A stretch of 24,929 nucleotides of DNA from a virus: the IMG/VR virus record IMGVR_UViG_3300006793_000260, positions 1 to 24,929 of that record. One strand, 5' to 3'. A program made the position numbers and the translations under genes. Positions within the stretch are counted from its first letter, which is position 1. Each line of letters starts with the position of its first letter. The notes under the pieces were generated by a model, which did no database searches, was not told the origin of the DNA, and saw only the letters and a list, made by a program, of their open reading frames with translations. Shown here in pieces: positions 2,437 to 21,868 of the stretch.

Positions 2437-3660
2437 TTAATATCCCACTGCTCTCCACCGTCTTGCACTTGGGTCCCAAACTTGTCCAGTGGCGTTTCCA
2501 CTATTCTCAAAATCTTCCATGGAATCAAATTTTTGCATCCGAGGCCGTTCTGGATTTTTACGATGAGAAGTTTTTAATTTGTCAAAATCTTCCCGAAATC
2601 CAAGATAGTCAACACGAGTGTTTAATTGTTCTCTAAGTCGTTTTATCGCAGCCAAAGTCGCTTTACTGCTCACAGGTACACCCCAATCACCAAACCCTAA
2701 AGGAACCAAAAACTTTTGAGCGGCTGCAACTTCTCCCTCACGAGCAACAGACCCCGGATCGACAACTTTAGCCATTGCTATTGCAAGCTCATACGGATCA
2801 GCCAATAAAGTTGCGGCAGAATCCGAAGGTAAATTAGGCTTGTCTACCATAGTTGCCTTTCCAGCGGCATAATCTTTTTTCCACTGCTCAAATTTATCCT
2901 CATACCCAACAGCAAAAGCATCTTTCATGGGTAACAAGCCAGCCATTGATGATTCGTAACCCCCATGCTGTCTTACCGCTCTTTCCAAGTTATCCAATGA
3001 CGAAAACGCCATCCCAACATTTGCTAGAGTTACGGTGTCGTCATCCGTTACAGGTTTTACCGGCGGGACATACTTTGTGTATTCTTTCCGGCCAGTGTCG
3101 GGATTTTTTTGAGTAATGTATTGTTGAGTAACTCCGTTGCCTAGATCCACTGTTTCAAGTTGGGGTGGGCCAGTTTCAAAGATCGATTTATACGTGTTTC
3201 GTACTTGCCCATCTGCGCCAACGCTGGTCCCGCTCAAGACCATAGTAGGCCCAAATGGGTTTTGGCCTTGCATGGGCATACCCATTCCCATACCCATCTG
3301 AGGTGGTTGTGGAGAATATCCGGGCATTCCCGGAAGCATCGACTGAAACCCTGATCCGGGCCGTCTATAATTGCCCGGTCTATATCCCTGCAACAATTGG
3401 TCTTGATCGAACATTTGTTTATCAACAGCAAGACCCTGTTTTTCTTTTTCTAGCTCAAATGCTCGATTTGCTTGGTTTTGCTGTTGTGCGAGAGTATCTT
3501 TTCGGTAGGCGGCTGTCGCTTCGTTTGCCACCGCCTGTTGCTCAAGCGTGTTTTGTCGGTAATCCGCCAACGCTTTGGCCTGTTCTTCTTGTGCCTGTTG
3601 CGATTTTTTAAATTGCAACGCTGATCGCATTGCGTCAAAACCTGATGTCCAGTCTGCCAT
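2437..3660 (-). CDS. Probable internal virion protein, 407 aa, unknown function
   Basis: I do not recognise a specific family. The N-terminal 75 residues are a Gln/Ala/Lys-rich helix that is probably a coiled coil. They are followed by a low-complexity Pro/Gly/Met segment with repeated M-G-M-G-M units near residues 100-135. The rest is an ordinary soluble domain, with no signal peptide or membrane helix. AAGG-type Shine-Dalgarno sequence (TAAGGAATAATT) precedes the ATG at 3660, which supports this start. The gene sits between the 266-residue Ala/Gln-rich protein and the large polyvalent protein, with 3 bases before the next ATG. In short-tailed phages this block downstream of the nozzle usually encodes proteins held in the head and ejected with the DNA, which is my basis for the call. 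Confidence 0.8.
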   Translation of the reverse strand: MADWTSGFDAMRSALQFKKSQQAQEEQAKALADYRQNTLEQQAVANEATAAYRKDTLAQQQNQANRAFELEKEKQGLAVDKQMFDQDQLLQGYRPGNYRRPGSGFQSMLPGMPGYSPQPPQMGMGMGMPMQGQNPFGPTMVLSGTSVGADGQVRNTYKSIFETGPPQLETVDLGNGVTQQYITQKNPDTGRKEYTKYVPPVKPVTDDDTVTLANVGMAFSSLDNLERAVRQHGGYESSMAGLLPMKDAFAVGYEDKFEQWKKDYAAGKATMVDKPNLPSDSAATLLADPYELAIAMAKVVDPGSVAREGEVAAAQKFLVPLGFGDWGVPVSSKATLAAIKRLREQLNTRVDYLGFREDFDKLKTSHRKNPERPRMQKFDSMEDFENSGNATGQVWDPSARRWRAVGY

Positions 3661-3669
3661 AATTATTCC

Positions 3670-4470
3670 TTATACAAAGAGTGATCCGATTTGTAATCCG
3701 TAGTCTACTAAACCGGGTTTGTAGTATGAGCCCGGATTCACTACTTGCCCCCCGCCAGACAATGCTGTTGCCAAACTAGCAGACTCATTGAGTCCGCCGT
3801 ATCTCATTCCGGGAACAGCACTAAGTATTTCAAACGGTTTAGTATTTGCCATTGCGGAAATATTTCCAGCTTGCTGCTGTAGTTGCCGCTCCTGTTGCAG
3901 ACGTGCGGCTTCCAATGCTAAATTTCTGTCCGATAGACTAGCCATGATCTGATTTTCGTTTGCGGCAAGTTGGGCTTGACGAGAGGCTTCGTTCCTAGCA
4001 ATTTGACTATTTAAAGCAACGTTTGATGAGTCTTGCGCTTGACCCATACCAGTCCCAAACGTCTGACCTGTCCGTGCAAACTGACTTCGGAGCCTCCGCT
4101 GTTGATCACCTAAACTAGCCCTTGCATTGCCATATTGATTTTGCGCTCCAACATCGCTCGCAGTTCGCGACGCCTGTAACGCGTTTTGAGTTTGTTTTCT
4201 TGCATCCGCCATCGCGTTGTTTAGTTGAGGACTGCGATTTAAATACTGACCGCCCAATGCATTTTGCGCGTACGCTTGCAGTGGAGCAAAACTAGATGCT
4301 GCATTTTGTGCGGCTCGACTTGCTGTACTTGCGTCATTCTGGCTTTGGTTCATTAAAGACGGCAACCTGCCAAAAATATTGTCACGAATTTCATCACCGC
4401 CACTGCCCGGAAATAGAGGGTCAAATTGTTTTGGTTTAATTGTTTTTTGTTTTCCGAAAAGTCCAAACAT
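3670..4470 (-). CDS. Probable internal virion protein, 266 aa, Ala/Gln-rich
   Basis: The family is not recognised with certainty. The protein starts MFGLFGKQK and then runs for most of its length as a strongly helical, Ala/Gln/Asn/Ser-rich chain (roughly residues 35-210), with few charged patches and no cysteine. The last 50 residues are Gly/Tyr-rich and hydrophobic, ending GLQIGSLFV. Such composition is typical of phage proteins that pack around the portal inside the head. The spacing of 9 bases to the next start suggests one transcript. No good Shine-Dalgarno sequence precedes this ATG, where the leader is A/T-rich. The coding call is firm and the role is inferred from position and composition. 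Confidence 0.75.
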   Translation of the reverse strand: MFGLFGKQKTIKPKQFDPLFPGSGGDEIRDNIFGRLPSLMNQSQNDASTASRAAQNAASSFAPLQAYAQNALGGQYLNRSPQLNNAMADARKQTQNALQASRTASDVGAQNQYGNARASLGDQQRRLRSQFARTGQTFGTGMGQAQDSSNVALNSQIARNEASRQAQLAANENQIMASLSDRNLALEAARLQQERQLQQQAGNISAMANTKPFEILSAVPGMRYGGLNESASLATALSGGGQVVNPGSYYKPGLVDYGLQIGSLFV

Positions 4471-4532
4471 AATATTTAATTTTTAGTTTACTAACGATCT
4501 ATTGGCTGGTCCAGTGCGAACATGACACGCTC

Positions 4533-4727
4533 TCAGTCATCAATTTTTTTTAGTTCTTCTTGAAGTTCCAAGATAGCCAAGGTCTGTGATTTTATTGTTT
4601 GCTGTACCTCGCGACACCACATGTCCATTGCAGTTTTTTCTGCTGGAGATAATCGACTGTTTCCCGGCCATCGAGGTCCGCTTGAAACCACGGCGTCGCT
4701 TAACGTTTTTGTAATTTTTACTGTCAT
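4533..4727 (-). CDS. Small helical protein, 64 aa, unknown
   Basis: I place the start at the ATG at 4727, which overlaps the stop of the nozzle gene in a TAATG junction, rather than at an upstream ATG at 4898 that would run deep inside that gene. The product begins MTVKITKTLSDAVV and ends in a predicted amphipathic or coiled-coil helix from about residue 28 to 62 (LSPAEK...LEELKKIDD). No family is recognised. Small helical proteins just after the nozzle or fibre genes of phages are sometimes lysis or assembly factors, but there is no membrane segment here, so a holin is unlikely. The 62 bases after it hold no gene I can support. Confidence 0.65.
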   Translation of the reverse strand: MTVKITKTLSDAVVSSGPRWPGNSRLSPAEKTAMDMWCREVQQTIKSQTLAILELQEELKKIDD

Positions 4728-6904
4728 TAGTACGTAGCTCCTAAACGTGCGATCATTCGATACGAAGACACTTGCCATTTCGCATCCACTGTATTGGAAC
4801 GAAATTTCAAACGAATGTACCTGCCAGAAGTAACTAAATTTACTCGTGTTATTCCGTTGCCACTTCCAGTAATGCTTACTGTTTGTGGACTTGTCCAACG
4901 AACTGCTTCATCTAAGTTGTCACGAGCCCCCGCGTATACTTCCAAAGTTTGCGAACCGGCTAAAGGTTTTGGGACGTGAAGTGATAAAAAAACGGTGTCC
5001 AAATACTTGAAAGACTCTGGCTCACCCCAATCGAAATCTGGAGTTTCTGCAAGACACTCATAATTATTGTTGTTATCAGCGTTGCAGTCATCGCGACTAT
5101 TACGGCTGTAATTACGACCATGAACAAGAAGCCGAGGAATGTTTTTGCTACCATCTTCGTACAGCCTTGTATTCCCCAGATCTCCACCTGTTGCAATAAC
5201 GGTATATTCCTGTTCGCCCTCATCTACGTATTCATAATATTTTTTTGCAGCATCATTAAACTCTTCGCCAATATCCAAAGAATTCCACGTCGGAGCCAAC
5301 TCCCACTCAACTGTACCAATACCGCTTATTCCGTTTTGCTGGCTATCGTACTCATCAATCGTAATCGTTTGAAATTCGTAGTTAAAAATTAAAACCTTGG
5401 TTTGGTTGGTCAGCGTCGGATACACAAACCAGATTTCAGAAAAGGCTCTGTTGTGGTGTGCGACAATTTCATCTCGCCGCGCTCTATCAAGTTCTTTTCT
5501 GAACGTGTCCCATTGCGTGGATGCAATCGCCTGAAGATCCTGACCTCCTGTGTAAACGTAAAAGTTTTTGTGTCCTATGAAAGCAATTGATCTGTCACCA
5601 AAACGGGTCCACGAATATTTACTTAATAAACCCTCGTCATGTATCTCAGTTCGAAAAAAGAAAGTACCTTGGTCGGGCCCAACATCCTGTATACTTTGTA
5701 TGGACCACTCTTTGAGAACATAAGCCTGATCTGCCAATGTTGTTATTGCGTGGATGTCACCATTTATTCGTGAGCCAGCATTTATAACTTCTCCAGATTC
5801 ATTTGCAGAAAGTGTTTCCAATATTGACCGCGCCGGGATGCGGTCCCCCGTCGTTGTAGAACCAGTATACCCCAGTGTTTCAAGTTTCACTGATGGTGTA
5901 ACAGTTAACTCGGATGAGCTTTGTATACCTTCATTTGTTGCTCCTTTATTTTCAACCCTGACAAACGGTTGAAACACAACGTACTTATCTTTTCCAATCA
6001 ACTCTGTACCAACAACAGTATCTTTATGTATGCCTTTGCCAGTTCTCCGCAAGGTCATAAAGTTTCCGGGATTTATGACCTCATAAATATCCGATCCATA
6101 TGAGTTACTAAGTTTCTCAATGCTGACAAAGTCTCCAGCTTCAAGGTTTGTTGCAGACTGCTCTATTTTAATAGTTACATGCTCGTCAAAAGCTGGGACT
6201 AAAACATTTTTGTTGTCACTGTTTGTCGCCGTAAAATCAATATCTTTGTTTTTGCTTTTGTCGGTAATAGTCAGTTCAGTTGATTTTTCACCTACGGTTA
6301 GACGCGCCCCAATCGTCCAGTCATTGTAATAATCAGGTCTCTCCAGAAAAATTTCTGTTGTGGCTTGGCTATCCACACTTTGAATAACGCCTATGCTGAT
6401 AGCGTTTTCATCTTCAGGTTCTGCAAATTTAACAACTTTATAATAATCGTAGACAATCTCTTCTGGACTAAACTCATTAGAGACAATTCGCACATACTGG
6501 CCGTCTGCAAACGATCCTGTAACATCAGTTAAATCAACCGGCCCAATTGTGCTGGATAGTTCTCCAGCAGTGATATCATTTTTCAACAAACCACTGCCTA
6601 CGCTTGGCGTTTCAGAAATTGGTATCCAGAGACTGTAATCATTTTTCGCTGACCACTTAATTTTGTCTTCGTAAAAAATCAGAAGATGCCCATTAAAAAC
6701 TTCCAGCCCAGAATAACCTTGAGTCGATACCAGTCCCGGTATCTCTCTCGCTCTCTCCATACCCGGAGACCAAAACAAAGGTTTCGCCCCCGGTGCTACA
6801 AATAATATTCGATCAAACCAGTCGGCAGCAGTCCATCTGCTCTCTTTGTTGGTCTCAGCGCCACTATAAATTTCGTGAATCTTTGCTTTAAATTGAAGAG
6901 GCAT
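4727..6904 (-). CDS. Tail nozzle / DNA-stabilisation protein, main part (P22 gp10-like), 725 aa
   Basis: The protein is rich in beta strands and aromatic residues throughout, with propeller-like repeats: WFDRILFVAPGAKPLFW at 29-45, GLEVFNGHLLIFYEDKIKW at 66-84, then a region with TFFFRTEIHDEGLLS and FGDRSIAFIGHKNFYVYTGG (about 414-454), and ALEIVAHHN-like and IWFVYPT segments (about 478-497). The C-terminus (GRYIRLKFRS, then SSYRMIARLG) is a small beta domain. This architecture matches the nozzle or DNA-stabilisation proteins of short-tailed phages that close the tail tip. Such proteins normally begin with about 100 residues describing a first blade. Here the start (MPLQFKAKIH) looks like mid-propeller, and matching N-terminal sequence is found in the 752-residue gene at 7679-9937. 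The 3' end of the glycosyltransferase gene overlaps its start by 17 bases. The family call is by pattern, not by search. Confidence 0.7.
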   Translation of the reverse strand: MPLQFKAKIHEIYSGAETNKESRWTAADWFDRILFVAPGAKPLFWSPGMERAREIPGLVSTQGYSGLEVFNGHLLIFYEDKIKWSAKNDYSLWIPISETPSVGSGLLKNDITAGELSSTIGPVDLTDVTGSFADGQYVRIVSNEFSPEEIVYDYYKVVKFAEPEDENAISIGVIQSVDSQATTEIFLERPDYYNDWTIGARLTVGEKSTELTITDKSKNKDIDFTATNSDNKNVLVPAFDEHVTIKIEQSATNLEAGDFVSIEKLSNSYGSDIYEVINPGNFMTLRRTGKGIHKDTVVGTELIGKDKYVVFQPFVRVENKGATNEGIQSSSELTVTPSVKLETLGYTGSTTTGDRIPARSILETLSANESGEVINAGSRINGDIHAITTLADQAYVLKEWSIQSIQDVGPDQGTFFFRTEIHDEGLLSKYSWTRFGDRSIAFIGHKNFYVYTGGQDLQAIASTQWDTFRKELDRARRDEIVAHHNRAFSEIWFVYPTLTNQTKVLIFNYEFQTITIDEYDSQQNGISGIGTVEWELAPTWNSLDIGEEFNDAAKKYYEYVDEGEQEYTVIATGGDLGNTRLYEDGSKNIPRLLVHGRNYSRNSRDDCNADNNNNYECLAETPDFDWGEPESFKYLDTVFLSLHVPKPLAGSQTLEVYAGARDNLDEAVRWTSPQTVSITGSGNGITRVNLVTSGRYIRLKFRSNTVDAKWQVSSYRMIARLGATY

Positions 6905-7682
6905 AATAATTTTTTATGTTATTCCAAAGAGAGGGCGCTTCGGACTTTAATCGACGCATGACACGTTTTTTCATGCTAGGCCAAGTTTTTGCATTGACGA
7001 GATGCGTGTAACCGAGTTCAGCAGTTAGGTCGTCGTTATCGTGCCGGTCGAGTAAGCACGTTATTTTTTTGTTTTGCTCCTTGGCCATTTTTGCGAACAA
7101 GGTTTGTTCTGCAAGGACCATACCCACTCTTACCGCTTTGTTTTTAGCAGTCATTTCCCGCATCCAATCAAGACTACGGTGGGCATAGTCATGAATAAAC
7201 TTTAAGTCTGATCCGCCTATCAATCCTGCGTTATAGCAGTCCCAATTTTCAAACGGTAAAACTACTTTTTCAGAATCAACATTGTCGTGTGCGTCCAAAC
7301 AAAACTGATAACATTTGAGCATATCTTTTGAACGCTCTGGGCTCTGGGCAAATAAACAAGAATCTAAAAATGTTTTCGGTAATGAATTAAATAGAAATAC
7401 ATCATCATCGATGTGGCAGAAAGGCTCGTCCTGAATCGAGTAACTAATCAGTTTTCCTGCCGCCCAATAAATTGGGTCCACTGAAATAAAGTCATTTAAA
7501 TCCGTATTGACTTTATCAAAACCAATACCAAGATTTTCCATTATATTTTTACCGTGAGAATCTGTTACCAGTTCACAACGGTACCCATGTTTTTTGACAA
7601 GGTGTGTGGAGAGCGCCCAGCGAATTGCTGTGTCTCTATTAAACGGACCCGGTCGAGTCCATAATGTGTAAACCATTTTCAT
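6888..7682 (-). CDS. GT-A-fold glycosyltransferase-like protein (DUF6734-like), 264 aa
   Basis: The chain starts with a short Rossmann-like strand (MVYTLWTRPG) and has the sugar-nucleotide metal-binding motif HIDDDVFLF at 90-98 (Asp92-Asp94). It continues with ENWDCYNAGLIGGSD (about 145-159) and AEQTLFAKMA (191-200), where Glu192 may be the general base, and a late YTHLVNAKTWP. This order is typical of nucleotide-diphospho-sugar transferases of the GT-A fold, and it resembles the uncharacterised DUF6734 group. It would transfer a sugar from a nucleotide donor in the cytoplasm of the infected cell. The start ATG at 7682 overlaps the TGA of the upstream gene (ATGA), so it is translationally coupled. 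It lies between two genes that look like pieces of one nozzle protein. The substrate is unknown; the family assignment rests on motif pattern. Confidence 0.65.
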   Translation of the reverse strand: MKMVYTLWTRPGPFNRDTAIRWALSTHLVKKHGYRCELVTDSHGKNIMENLGIGFDKVNTDLNDFISVDPIYWAAGKLISYSIQDEPFCHIDDDVFLFNSLPKTFLDSCLFAQSPERSKDMLKCYQFCLDAHDNVDSEKVVLPFENWDCYNAGLIGGSDLKFIHDYAHRSLDWMREMTAKNKAVRVGMVLAEQTLFAKMAKEQNKKITCLLDRHDNDDLTAELGYTHLVNAKTWPSMKKRVMRRLKSEAPSLWNNIKNYYASSI

Positions 7683-9937
7683 GGGTTAGCAGTCCCCGCT
7701 CCCGCTCCACTTGTTTCTTCTTCTTCTTTTTCACAGAGATCCAAAAACAAATCACTGAAAGTGTCCACAAGTTCGTCGCCTGATTCGGCGTCATAGTAAA
7801 GTCCAGTTGTTGCCCAGCCAGTGATCGTGCTGTAATAACTCGTGTATCTCTTTACGTCATACCCAATTACAATAAGTGTGATGTTGTCGTTTTTAATTGC
7901 TGTCGCTTGTGTGGTTGCCGCCGCCATGGCTTGGTTAAAAACCGCTACATAGTTGGTAGCTAATCCGGGCCCATTATAGGTAGGCAGTACTCTTGAGCTA
8001 TTAAGGTCTGAAGAAACAATATTTGAAATCCCGTCCGTGAACAAAACAATTACCTTTTTGTGGCCGTCTTCGGTATATTCGTTAACCATTTTGTGAGCAG
8101 TGCTTAACCCATCAGCCACGGCAGTATACTCATAGGACTCTAAATTTTTTACGTCTTGGTAGAGAGATCCTATGTCGTCGGTTAGCCCCACTATCTCATT
8201 TATTCGTGCCGTTTGATCTTTGTAGTCGCCGCTAAAAGTCATAAGACCAACATAGTCTGTCCCGGTTTTTGCAGCAGAATCTAAAAACAATTCCAGCCCC
8301 TCTTTTGCGCGATCCAGTCGAGACTCCCCAGTAACTGACGATGAAGTAATATTCATACTTCGGCTGACATCGACCGCGACAATAACATCCAGAGGGGTAT
8401 CAACGCATGTGTACCTGACTTCAAGATCTGCAATTCCAGTGAGTCCTTCGTAGCTCGCGATTACTTCACAAGTGCCAACCTCTTTGGCTTGCACATTTCC
8501 AGTGTTTTCCGCAACTGCGATTTTAGAATCTGATACAGACCAACTTGCCTTTAACGTGACCTCCTCTTTGTAGCCGTTGCTGTATTCGATGTAGGCTCTA
8601 AATGGGTGCTTCGTGTTTACCTGTAATTTTTTAGTTGTTGGTGTCACAACTAATTTTCGTGGTTGCCTAGAAAAATCCCCTCGGTAACACAGTTGTAATT
8701 CTCTGGAGACACCTTTACTAAACGTATCTTGGACGTTTCCATCCTCATCAATAAATTGACACGTAAAAACTGAGTCACTTGCCTCTCCGTAAAGAAACCC
8801 AAATTTATCACTGTATCGAACTTGGCTACCGTAAACATTGCTCGTGTTGTTGTAGGTTCGTTTTGAGTGCCCCCCTAAACCAACAGTAACCATCGTGCAG
8901 CCATCAGGCATTATGATCCGTTCATATCCATGTGTGTGACCGCATATCAATAAATCCGTCCCCCACTCTGCCCATGGCCATCTTAAAACTTCATAACCCG
9001 GATAGTAGCTGGCCGAAGTAGTGTCGCTGGTGTAGGGCGGATGGTGCATTACCACAATTCGAATTGGGCAATCGCTTGTTGCCATTGTAAGTTTCAACCA
9101 CGTAGCCATCGGGCCTGTACTACTTAGGTCGGCTTGGCCTTTGCCGCTGGCTGCACCAGTCCCACCAATACTGCTACCTCCGGGACCATTAGCCGCTGGA
9201 CCACTACCATAAGAATCCAGAAAAAAGAAATGAACTGGCCCCCGCTTTATGTCGTAAAATTGTTCGTTTCCGGGTAAGTCAAAAAATCCTAAATATTTGG
9301 TTCCGGGCCCATCATCCCAATCGTGGTTACCTAACACTGGGAATAAATAATTTTCGTCGCCGCCTGTGTAAGCGCCCCCGTATTGACCCATGGCCCAAGA
9401 GTACCATTGAGCAAGTTGCTCTTCGTAATTATCCGTGTCCGGATCTCCAGATCCCCCGTCGGCATAAACAATATCGCCAGCGTGTAAAACCACATCGGGT
9501 TCTTTTTTCCGCATGGCGTTTGAAACTTTTTTGATGCCTTCGCCAATGCTTCCTGAATCACTTGTCGCAGCAAATTTTAGTGTGCAAGGTCCATATGGGT
9601 TTTCGCCTCCTACCACACATGCGTATTCGCTGGATCTTTTCTCAACTGTGTATAATGACGTGTCAGTTCCAATGACTGGAATTTTTCTCGACTCCTCATC
9701 AGCAGATGTAATGTTGGCTTGATGAATGAGGTTGGCAGGAGTCTGTAAATTTTTTGGGGTTACCTCAACGCGCTCGTGACCGGGCGCACTTTTCAATGAC
9801 CCGTCTTCGACTCTGACATTTTTCGCTTCCGTTAAATATTCTTTTGCCTGATTTTTTTGAAGATCAGGAGGCAAGTTTTTAAGCAAGCCCTTGCCCGGAT
9901 TATTTACGACCGTGATTCTTGCATTTTTTCTACGCAT
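7679..9937 (-). CDS. Virion fusion protein: nozzle-like N-terminus, PAP-type metallophosphoesterase, BIG2 Ig domain, VWA domain; 752 aa
   Basis: Residues 9-57 (VVNNPGKGLL, later NVRVEDGSLKSAPG) and 84-98 (IPVIGTDTSLYTV) read like the start of a phage nozzle propeller. Residues about 118-395 carry all metallophosphoesterase motifs in purple-acid-phosphatase style: ATSDSG (Asp127), GDIVY (Asp155, Tyr158), GNHDW (Asn204, His205), VVMHHPPY (His298) and GHTHGYER (His334, His336). Residues about 426-508 match a BIG2 bacterial Ig-like fold (LVVTP, YSNGYKEEVT, WSVSD, GNVQAKEVGTCEV). Residues about 515-735 are a von Willebrand A domain with a complete MIDAS metal site: DVSRS (523-527), Thr605 and FTDG (Asp635). 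There is no signal peptide, so surface display would be on the particle. Expected activity is hydrolysis of phosphomonoesters or diesters, with VWA giving metal-dependent adhesion. Start ATG at 9937 overlaps the preceding stop by 8 bases. The domain calls are strong; the biological role is inference. Confidence 0.9.
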   Translation of the reverse strand: MRRKNARITVVNNPGKGLLKNLPPDLQKNQAKEYLTEAKNVRVEDGSLKSAPGHERVEVTPKNLQTPANLIHQANITSADEESRKIPVIGTDTSLYTVEKRSSEYACVVGGENPYGPCTLKFAATSDSGSIGEGIKKVSNAMRKKEPDVVLHAGDIVYADGGSGDPDTDNYEEQLAQWYSWAMGQYGGAYTGGDENYLFPVLGNHDWDDGPGTKYLGFFDLPGNEQFYDIKRGPVHFFFLDSYGSGPAANGPGGSSIGGTGAASGKGQADLSSTGPMATWLKLTMATSDCPIRIVVMHHPPYTSDTTSASYYPGYEVLRWPWAEWGTDLLICGHTHGYERIIMPDGCTMVTVGLGGHSKRTYNNTSNVYGSQVRYSDKFGFLYGEASDSVFTCQFIDEDGNVQDTFSKGVSRELQLCYRGDFSRQPRKLVVTPTTKKLQVNTKHPFRAYIEYSNGYKEEVTLKASWSVSDSKIAVAENTGNVQAKEVGTCEVIASYEGLTGIADLEVRYTCVDTPLDVIVAVDVSRSMNITSSSVTGESRLDRAKEGLELFLDSAAKTGTDYVGLMTFSGDYKDQTARINEIVGLTDDIGSLYQDVKNLESYEYTAVADGLSTAHKMVNEYTEDGHKKVIVLFTDGISNIVSSDLNSSRVLPTYNGPGLATNYVAVFNQAMAAATTQATAIKNDNITLIVIGYDVKRYTSYYSTITGWATTGLYYDAESGDELVDTFSDLFLDLCEKEEEETSGAGAGTANP

Positions 9938-10652
9938 ACCACTCTAAAATTACTAGTCCACCTCGTCCGCTCTGAGAGCCTGAAGTCCCGCCTTGGCCGT
10001 ATGGAAGGTATGGACGAATATACCCTAAACCGGGTGAGGCATTTGTTTTTATTTTGTGTAATACTGATGACGTACTATCAGTGGCAGAAGTTCCTGCATG
10101 GAAGGTGCCTTGTGTTTGTGTTTCAATAAATGTCCCGCCTACATCATTAATTTGGTATGCCGATTCTTTATCCGCTCCGTCCCCTACTACTATTTGCAAA
10201 GTCTCAAATGGCCGCACTCGTAAAACAGTTTCCGAATAGCCGCCTGTGTGCCCGTCTCCTGCCGTGTACCCGGCTTGCCCGGACGCAATATATCGCCCAC
10301 CTCCCTCAACCAGAATAGCGTTAATGCGAGTTACAAATTCTGGGACTATAAACTTAAACAGAGTTTGGTTTGTGCTAGACTTTTCTCCCACATCGGGACC
10401 AACGGTTGCGGTTTTTTCGTTGTCGTCGATATAGGCTACGGCGTTGGTTCCGATTCCGGGACTTGCTCCCGTAAAATACGCAAGCGATGACCGTGGGCTC
10501 GTGTATTCAAGTTCAGAAATAATCTCAACAATTTGGCCTTTGGAGTTAACGCGGACACGCTGACCTTTACCAGACGGATCGTCGGCTAGGTCCATAAGTG
10601 ACCCCGGACCAATCGACGACGATTTTAACGTTCCTGAATCGCAGTTAAACAT
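9930..10652 (-). CDS. Glycine-rich tail appendage protein, second copy without adaptor domain, 240 aa
   Basis: This is a paralogue of residues 41-304 of the 304-residue protein at 11260-12174. Shared landmarks in order are MFN at the start, V-x-VNSKG (residues about 34-38), a short strand region, a Gly-rich fold beginning RINAILVEGGG, and the ending GLVILEWYA (compare GLVVLEW in the paralogue). The Gly-rich fold is of the kind found at the tips of phage fibres. Compared with its paralogue it lacks the N-terminal attachment segment, which is encoded separately at 11063-11263. It joins the upstream gene through TAAAATG and overlaps the next by 8 bases. It probably forms a trimeric receptor-binding tip or cap. 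The fold is suggested by family resemblance, and the receptor is unknown. Confidence 0.75.
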   Translation of the reverse strand: MFNCDSGTLKSSSIGPGSLMDLADDPSGKGQRVRVNSKGQIVEIISELEYTSPRSSLAYFTGASPGIGTNAVAYIDDNEKTATVGPDVGEKSSTNQTLFKFIVPEFVTRINAILVEGGGRYIASGQAGYTAGDGHTGGYSETVLRVRPFETLQIVVGDGADKESAYQINDVGGTFIETQTQGTFHAGTSATDSTSSVLHKIKTNASPGLGYIRPYLPYGQGGTSGSQSGRGGLVILEWYA

Positions 10653-10653
10653 T

Positions 10654-11061
10654 TTACGAATTGGCCATCCACGTCAGTTTGTCGTTCGCGGTACCTATGG
10701 CGTATAATTTATTAACATTATCGACGTCTAGCTCAACTGAGTCTCCAGCCTGTAGCGCATACCCAGTTGTGGCTGAAACTCCGCTTGGTCCAACATACGT
10801 AATTCCGGAATTAGTGCTTAGAGCCTTAACCAATAGTTTATGTTTGACGGCTACGCTGGTCCCCGAATTTAACTGTACAGCACTAGTTGTTATTGTCTGT
10901 TGGCCTGTAACAACGGTTGAGGACGGAGCTTGTTTGACACTCGTCGCTGCTCCGCTCGGGAGGGCGCTACTGTCAATTATGTGGTGAGCAATGTGCTCAG
11001 TCCCGCTGATAGTTGTCTTAACCTGTTTAGTCGTCCCGACTGCGTCTTTAACTTGTAGCAT
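10654..11061 (-). CDS. Small beta-rich virion protein, 135 aa (fibre/decoration type)
   Basis: The sequence is Thr/Ser/Val-rich with almost no aromatic core until the end. It matches a pattern common in phage structural proteins: a MLQVKDAVG start, an IAHHIID strand, SGTSVAVKHKLLVKAL, then SGITYVGPSGVSATTGYALQAGDSVELDVDNVNKLYAIG, which I cite here only by its key elements (YVGPSGV, GYALQAGDSVELDV, LYAIG). This pattern describes a small beta sandwich that is often displayed on particles. The gene lies between the detached adaptor gene and its glycine-rich partner, and joins both by TAAAATG-type junctions. It could be an intermediate ring or spacer between the two. Function is inferred from position. 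Confidence 0.75.
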   Translation of the reverse strand: MLQVKDAVGTTKQVKTTISGTEHIAHHIIDSSALPSGAATSVKQAPSSTVVTGQQTITTSAVQLNSGTSVAVKHKLLVKALSTNSGITYVGPSGVSATTGYALQAGDSVELDVDNVNKLYAIGTANDKLTWMANS

Positions 11062-12174: not shown

Positions 12175-12837
12175 TTATCCTCCCATTCTGAGTTTACGTC
12201 CAGAGTGCTTCCGCCCTTGATCATCTCTCCAAGCTTCTTGCAAATAATTTTTGTATAAGGCCATAAAATCTGCCGCTATCGGATCGTTGACAGATAGAAA
12301 AGCAATCTCTTTGATTTTTGAAATTAGCATATCTTCATAATTATTTGTTATGTAATTAGATTCCAAATCATTCACAAGATCGTTAAAAAATCCAAAATAC
12401 TGTAATCGATAAACAACGTCTTGGTCTACCGTATCGTCTATATTAAAAATATAACTTCCAGAACTAGTTTGTTCAATGAAAGCTTCCAAGTGCGATTGAC
12501 TACCTGCTGAGACAGATGGCCAAAGTGCCTGTGAATGCTCGTCCATGTATGCACGAGATGTAACTGACACTGGAGCTTTTGTTTCTGACCCGTCTGACGA
12601 AATTAAGAAAACCGCCGGTCGCTCATTTTGTAGTTCTTTGAAATCAGATGGTAGCTGCACGGAACTAAAGCCGGAGGCAATGGTCGCGTTTGTCGTTTTC
12701 CGCATACAATTCCAAGAACGGTCTTGGCATATTTTTTTAATGGCTCTGTTAATCCATTTTGTATACCAACCACTCTGCTCCTTGTCGTATCGAGCAAAGT
12801 CCTCTTGCAGCATTAATTTTAAGTCTCCTAAATTCAT
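12175..12837 (-). CDS. Head-tail adaptor (SU10/T7 gp11-type connector), 220 aa
   Basis: The protein starts MNLGDLKLMLQEDFARYD, has a KWINRAIKKICQDRSW helix near residues 27-42 and a ...SVQLPSDFKELQ strand near 57-68. It ends with a helical region (FFNDLVNDLESNYITNNYEDMLI and later helices) and a basic tail KHSGRKLRMGG. The order of N-terminal helix, W-x-N-x-A helix and LPxDF strand is characteristic of adaptor proteins that form a dodecameric ring below the portal. Its place after the capsid and before the appendage genes fits. The ATG at 12837 has no clear Shine-Dalgarno and lies 9 bases after a terminator-like hairpin T-tract. The family call is by pattern and position. Confidence 0.75.
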   Translation of the reverse strand: MNLGDLKLMLQEDFARYDKEQSGWYTKWINRAIKKICQDRSWNCMRKTTNATIASGFSSVQLPSDFKELQNERPAVFLISSDGSETKAPVSVTSRAYMDEHSQALWPSVSAGSQSHLEAFIEQTSSGSYIFNIDDTVDQDVVYRLQYFGFFNDLVNDLESNYITNNYEDMLISKIKEIAFLSVNDPIAADFMALYKNYLQEAWRDDQGRKHSGRKLRMGG

Positions 12838-20888: not shown

Positions 20889-21167
20889 TCACTTCGCGTT
20901 CGGTGTGTTTCCTGCCAACGGTTTAACCTTTTTCGGGACTTCTTGTTTTCCGGGTTTTTCCAAAACTTCAATTACCGGCTTTTCCTCTTCTTCAACTTGG
21001 ATGTCGTTAACAACCATGTCTACAAACTCCAGTGCGCCTTGGTTCGCTCTTATTTGCTCCTCGATCCGCACCAATTGTGTATGTGCTTCGATTTGCTGTT
21101 TCTGCAAATTCTGCAAATTTTCCGTGATTTGCAGTTTTCTTGTTTCGATTATATTTTTTTCAGTCAT
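20889..21167 (-). CDS. Coiled-coil protein, 92 aa, at position of a small terminase subunit
   Basis: The start ATG at 21167 overlaps the TGA of the glycosyltransferase gene (ATGA). Residues 1-45 are a long helix rich in Gln, Glu and Lys (LQKQQIEAHTQLVRIEEQI), followed by an acidic segment and a Pro/Lys-rich tail (VPKKVKPLAGNTPNAK). There is no helix-turn-helix that I can recognise. It sits where phages usually encode a small terminase subunit, so that is one possibility, but composition alone does not support it. The 69 bases that follow, up to terminase, hold no gene. Confidence 0.6.
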   Translation of the reverse strand: MTEKNIIETRKLQITENLQNLQKQQIEAHTQLVRIEEQIRANQGALEFVDMVVNDIQVEEEEKPVIEVLEKPGKQEVPKKVKPLAGNTPNAK

Positions 21168-21868
21168 AATTTTTGTTCGTGCCTACAAATAGCATCCGGT
21201 GCTAACACAACCGGAGAGTCTTGGTCCCAGCATTGTTTTGCGTAGTCCATGCATTCCCCCCAGCGGATCATCTGACCACTGTGATGCTCTTTTGCCGTTT
21301 GATTTTCTTCACACCCACTCCTAAATTCTGTCCGCTCTAAAAGGTCTCGTTTTATCAAGCAGCACCCCAGCGGAGCTAGATGTGTGTAAGTGGTTTTATA
21401 GTCTCGGACAAATTCGTAGTGGGAAAATGACTCATCTTCCAAAAACATTCCTGCACAATATAAATGTTTCACTATTGTGCTTCCGTCTTGTGGGTTTTTG
21501 TAAATTGTTTTATCGGGTAAAGGTATCCAACCGCCTACGGCCTCGTGTCCTTGCTCCGCTGCCGCTAATAATTTTTCAATGACATCTGGCTCCGGGACAA
21601 CGTCCGAGTCTAACATTAGTAAGTAATCAGTTTCCTCGTCGCATAATGCTCGCTGCCTCAAATCTTCTCTTGCTTCGCTACATCTCCGATAGAATTTTTG
21701 AACATCTGATTTATCGCAATTACCTTTCGGGTCTTTACGCAACAAAACATGATAATTACCATACGTAAACCCACCTTTGCATAGCTTTTGCAGATCCGGG
21801 TGTATCCAGTCTGTAAATGGTACGCATACTAAAACGTTTGGTTTTTTCACGATTTCTTTAACCACCAC
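21164..21868 (-). CDS. GT-A-fold glycosyltransferase (family 2-like), 234 aa
   Basis: A N-terminal strand PNVLVCVPF (10-18) is followed by a helix RCSEAREDLRQRAL and the metal-binding motif YLLMLDSDVVPEP (82-94, Asp87 and Asp89). Then come GGWIP, an LYCAGMF core strand, GCCLIKRDLLE near 168-178, and GECMDYAKQC near 204-213. This matches GT-A-type sugar transferases that use a nucleotide-sugar donor and a divalent metal. Candidate acceptors are phage fibres or host surface sugars. The start is GTG: either 21868, or the second GTG at 21865, which has AGG 7 bases ahead. It overlaps the preceding collar gene by 22 bases, so expression is coupled to that gene. The acceptor is unknown. Confidence 0.75.
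   Translation of the reverse strand: MVVKEIVKKPNVLVCVPFTDWIHPDLQKLCKGGFTYGNYHVLLRKDPKGNCDKSDVQKFYRRCSEAREDLRQRALCDEETDYLLMLDSDVVPEPDVIEKLLAAAEQGHEAVGGWIPLPDKTIYKNPQDGSTIVKHLYCAGMFLEDESFSHYEFVRDYKTTYTHLAPLGCCLIKRDLLERTEFRSGCEENQTAKEHHSGQMIRWGECMDYAKQCWDQDSPVVLAPDAICRHEQKL

Follow-up and report, generated by a model that had tools for sequence, protein, structure and literature searches.

Phage tail enzymes and nozzles with inserted domains are both already known, and the usual seats of the enzymes are fibres, spikes and lysins. The closest described counterpart of the locus analysed here is gp17 of the Kuravirus SU10 (PDB 7z47, 7z4b, 7z4f), a one-chain nozzle that carries four Ig-like nozzle domains and neither an enzyme nor a VWA domain. 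These Ig-like domains sit between blades 2 and 3 of the propeller, and after receptor binding they straighten towards the cell, extending the tail (PMC9509320). The nozzles of the PaP3, Pa223 and VP1 type (PDB 9nwi, 8zkk, 8zkm) belong to the same family, are matched by both nozzle pieces of our locus, and differ from it in being a single chain of about 515 residues without an insert. Our study reports on a viral locus with homologues of both the N-terminal piece and the body of the SU10 nozzle, and with extra domains, one of them Ig-like, at the same junction; in contrast to SU10, the nozzle gene is divided in two, with a phosphatase, a BIG2 domain and a VWA domain as the insert. The novelty lies in this purple acid phosphatase (PAP)-type enzyme with a VWA domain on a split nozzle.

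The window, that is, the whole stretch of DNA analysed, comprises 24,929 bases and is the entire IMG/VR record IMGVR_UViG_3300006793_000260, a metagenomic viral contig. Its genes lie on the minus strand; among their products Pfam recognises SU10-type proteins of the capsid, portal and adaptor, families shared with the SU10 genome; the adaptor of the neck is encoded at 12175..12837 (SU10_adaptor, 1.3e-11). The composite protein, P0001 (752 aa), is encoded at 7679..9937 and the nozzle body (725 aa) by the next gene but one, at 4727..6904. The two are separated by a DUF6734 gene (6888..7682, 264 aa; PF20508, E 3.9e-44), which begins within the final codons of the P0001 gene with an overlap of 4 bases and holds the same position in all four close relatives. 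A preliminary description of this DNA had placed the composite gene in the tail block, and this is well supported. A large protein at 1-2433, possibly of ejection type, has a HEALGH motif resembling that of zinc peptidases and no Pfam match. RNA families and tRNAs were looked for in the window and none were found. Neither a host nor a prophage was found in two GTDB scans, for which the portal and the composite protein served as queries.

P0001 joins four parts, and its Pfam matches all exceed the gathering cut-offs. Residues 1-101 (9635..9937) form the N-terminal piece of an SU10/PaP3-type nozzle. A metallophosphoesterase follows at residues 118-412 (8702..9586; Metallophos PF00149 at 121-338, E 3.2e-17), then a BIG2 Ig-like domain at residues 423-509 (8411..8671; Big_2 at 431-494, E 3.6e-6) and a VWA domain at residues 511-736 (7730..8407; VWA_2 PF13519 at 518-636, E 6.7e-16; VWA PF00092, E 3.4e-11). 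All of these lie on the minus strand, and the extent of the gene and the joining of phosphoesterase, BIG2 and VWA domains are as first described. The metal-site residues named at that stage are likewise all present: the seven PAP metal ligands D127, D155, Y158, N204, H298, H334 and H336, the second-shell histidine H205, and the complete MIDAS of the VWA domain (DxSxS, T, D: D523, S525, S527, T605, D635). The VWA domain lies between Cys511 and Cys735, two of six cysteines that are invariant across the five composite proteins known to us. P0001 has no obvious signal peptide.

By its fold and its seven ligands the phosphatase domain is of the PAP type, and PAP activity is predicted. A profile of the domain matches solved PAPs at 2.5e-14, with the mammalian type-5 enzymes matched across the full length. 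P0001 shares with the mammalian and plant enzymes (1ute, 2bq8, 4dhl) the fold, the seven ligands including the charge-transfer tyrosine, and the motifs GDxxY, GNHD and GHxHxYER; its GDxxY and GHTHGYER variants had already been read as those of PAPs in the preliminary description. It differs from them in being only about 16-20% identical, in lying within a phage structural protein and in the apparent lack of a signal peptide. The AlphaFold models of P0001 and of the nozzle body are of low confidence (pLDDT 44 and 50; the P0001 alignment had five rows and 44 is its mean) and were taken only for fold matches, among which residues 116-412 of P0001 match pig PAP 1ute with Z 17.8 and an rmsd of 3.8 over 244 residues, and residues 423-509 match the LigA Ig domain with Z 14.4. 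Of the three domains proposed for structural comparison, the phosphatase and BIG2 domains are thereby upheld; the VWA part of the model is unusable, and that assignment comes from Pfam and the motifs.

The nozzle-like look of the N-terminus, remarked upon in the preliminary description, is borne out, and the remainder of the nozzle lies in the body gene. An eight-row profile of the P0001 N-terminus matches six intact nozzles with E 1.1e-6 (hhalign), compared with P 0.11 or worse in 17 control comparisons with other families and a reversed nozzle. The body matches intact nozzles of Mel-JY34, tf, PaP3 and others with E 2e-17 (hhalign) and phrog_3287 at 1.4e-26, and the best PDB matches of its model in Foldseek are the nozzles of Pa223, SU10 and VP1. 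It is without the first ~100 nozzle residues, which are carried by P0001. Searching with the N-terminus also led to three phages (L065, L066 and L067) in which both pieces form a single 817-aa chain without the insert; residues 38-103 of P0001 match residues 36-97 of the L065 nozzle (blastp 5e-8), and residues 22-99 of the window body match its residues 118-195 (9e-12). In a tree of nozzle bodies the intact L065 and L066 are nested, fully supported, among the split ones, which means that the split arose repeatedly or was undone. Neither piece matched the candidate nozzles of Vibrio ABTNL-3, Kuura, CRP-810, Desulfofustis and PaP2. The body also has, at residues ~101-365, a beta-rich stretch additional to PaP3-type nozzles, modelled with better confidence than the remainder.

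The insert lies at the site of the SU10 nozzle domains. SU10 gp17 matches the nozzle profile over residues 1-106 and 522-1004, with an interruption of ~415 residues, the four Ig-like domains, at the same junction. In profile positions the SU10 insert falls between ~93 and 102, and the window's N-terminal piece ends near 95 and its body resumes near 104. The correspondence is one of place only: P0001 has one BIG2 domain with its phosphatase and VWA domain, and an SU10-like array of four Ig-like domains is absent. Compared directly with a five-row N-terminal profile, the N-terminus of SU10 is non-significant by itself (P 0.23); the link to SU10 was established via the family profile of nozzles together with the unsplit nozzle of the L065 type. 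The split, the site of the insert and the other cargo described below go beyond the preliminary description.

The whole architecture, which it had been proposed to seek in other phages, recurs, with gene order preserved, in another four distinct phages, which come from several metagenomes (L002/L007, L003/L009, L004 and L005/L006/L008), with 35-44% identity to P0001; the composite genes of L002 and L005 are near-identical and their contigs differ. These relatives were found by scans of viral contigs, with the capsid protein as the first query and then the composite protein; each scan depended on a small number of short peptide patterns, and the count of relatives is therefore too low. Every metal and MIDAS residue is invariant across all five composite proteins. 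Purifying selection is evident: the phosphatase domains of L002 and L003 are 82% identical, with dN 0.12 and dS 2.3, the latter near saturation. The phosphatase is conserved like the nozzle body (69% and 71% identity, respectively, between L002 and L004), and the VWA domain diverges faster than either (72% between L002 and L003, 49% between L002 and L004), as expected for a recognition domain. Among 50,697 isolate phage records neither P0001 nor the composite protein of L003 has a match. The G+C content of the window is 45%, compared with 54-65% in the four nearest relatives (L002-L005), so their hosts probably differ.

In other phages the N-terminal piece carries other cargo: a PKD domain with a propeller-like stretch in L032, PKD repeats in L031, a Ser/Gly linker with a beta domain in L064, and a short extension in L058, L060 and L061; in L030 it is a 106-aa protein without cargo. 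The reading frame of L031 is broken between the N-terminal piece and the PKD repeats (3049-5213), by a programmed frameshift or a sequence error. The balance tips slightly towards the view that the nozzle of this SU10-like branch is modular, with a slot for cargo at the propeller junction, where the gene has been cut and the N-terminal piece has become a free-standing carrier, such that a two-chain nozzle would bring an exchangeable enzyme or adhesin to the surface of the cell.

A related phosphatase occurs in a second context. In L010, L011 and L041 it is 27-32% identical and follows an adaptor-like protein in one fused chain. BIG2-VWA has a gene of its own there, the next one downstream in L010 and L011 and one further downstream in L041; the BIG2-VWA parts of L004 and L041 are 27% identical over 267 residues (1.4e-13). 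Here, too, cysteines lie directly ahead of the VWA domain. The fused N-terminal part is probably the neck adaptor, an assignment that leans on gene position, its sequence match being weak (P 6e-4, probability 28%). That the enzyme and BIG2-VWA are paired in two virion contexts argues that enzyme and VWA protein act together on the particle. The phosphatases of L011 and L041 are without the PAP tyrosine, and metal use may therefore differ across the group. The L010 phosphatase domain has one weak, unannotated match among the isolate phage records. Within the adaptor-like half of the L010 fusion (8756-10858; protein residues 94-227) lies an intein with Hint and intein splicing domains, and a 303-kb viral contig (L044, 7584-8807) encodes a related phosphatase as a separate 407-aa ORF without VWA. 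Glycosyltransferase-like genes accompany the cargo genes in L010, L011, L031 and L041, and the window has a family-2 glycosyltransferase gene at 21164-21868, away from the nozzle genes; together with the DUF6734 gene between the nozzle pieces, such genes may point to glycosylation of virion proteins.

We propose a model in which P0001 is one half of a split nozzle and the product of 4727-6904 the rest. The two chains would assemble into a nozzle beneath the adaptor, its expected docking partner being the product of 12175..12837, with the copy number of six taken from SU10 by analogy. An arm of phosphatase, BIG2 and VWA domains would hang from the junction, in the position of SU10's four Ig-like nozzle domains, with BIG2 as a spacer and the whole presented near the cell surface. 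Most likely, the VWA domain uses its MIDAS metal to bind a surface ligand; the phosphatase, with its two metals, would remove or cut phosphates of the host envelope (LPS core or lipid A phosphates, phosphoglycans or similar) during adsorption. We regard this reading as reasonably probable. A virion location of P0001 is strongly inferred. As for the earlier proposal of a phosphatase displayed on the particle, its attachment to a virion protein, the nozzle, is well supported, and the display itself is what the model would predict.

The PAP fold of Plasmodium GAP50 serves as an anchor, and the phosphatase fold could in the same way serve the nozzle for structure or binding, without catalysis. GAP50 (3tgh) ranks among the top structural matches, phage tails often turn enzyme folds into adhesins, and the tyrosine ligand is absent in L011 and L041, as noted above; this reading is nevertheless improbable in view of the seven ligands and second-shell histidine kept in five of five composite proteins at an overall identity of about 40%. 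We give a similarly small chance to an enzyme that acts within the infected cell, for example in counter-defence, on nucleotides, signalling molecules or proteins, or in phosphate supply, with the nozzle link secondary. The cytoplasm is where the composite protein would be made, and there is a counter-defence precedent in gp48 of mycobacteriophage A10ZJ24, a metallophosphoesterase reported to aid immune evasion (PMC12287305). The particle is favoured over the cytoplasm, however, by the enzyme's fusion partners (a nozzle piece in the first group, a probable adaptor in the second), by the BIG2-VWA partner, by the conserved cysteines flanking the VWA domain and by the structural operon. Phosphate supply for phage or host, a role the preliminary description had allowed, was considered and ranked low, as it finds no support: the protein lacks an obvious signal peptide, its phosphatase is part of a fusion with a tail component, and none of the genes seen in the window is a phosphate gene.

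It is less probable still that P0001 is a decoration protein attached elsewhere, with its N-terminal piece out of the nozzle and the product of 4727-6904 as the sole nozzle. No split phage has the first ~100 residues on its body, and in L030 and L031 the N-terminal piece is encoded several kb from it; against this, the piece is kept in at least nine phages, including the cargo-free form of L030, which suggests that it is needed in itself. The window is a metagenomic contig, and an assembly chimera or chance might be invoked, but the repetition of architecture and gene order in four distinct phages from different metagenomes already refutes this and leaves it a negligible chance.

No similar fusion was found among the isolate phage records or in the literature searched for virion PAP or VWA fusions, in keeping with the initial impression that no phage structural protein with this combination had been described. 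GDPD-type tail enzymes have an enzyme fold other than that of the P0001 phosphatase. Such tail-associated teichoic-acid-degrading enzymes (surveyed in PMC10194240) are akin to our reading of P0001 in the idea of a virion enzyme that cuts phosphate-bearing surface polymers, but their hosts are Gram-positive. ORF22 of the Thermobifida phage P1312 also joins a metallophosphatase to a putative surface-binding domain (CBM); unlike P0001, it has a signal peptide, is predicted to be secreted, has neither a nozzle fusion nor a VWA domain, and lies outside an SU10-type tail (PMC4569894).

The function of the nozzle extension becomes directly testable with expressed proteins. If our model is true, a nozzle-built PAP-type enzyme with a VWA domain would constitute a new class of tail enzyme and indicate host-envelope phosphate as an entry target, and the split nozzle, with cargo that varies between phages, would give short tails a natural attachment point.
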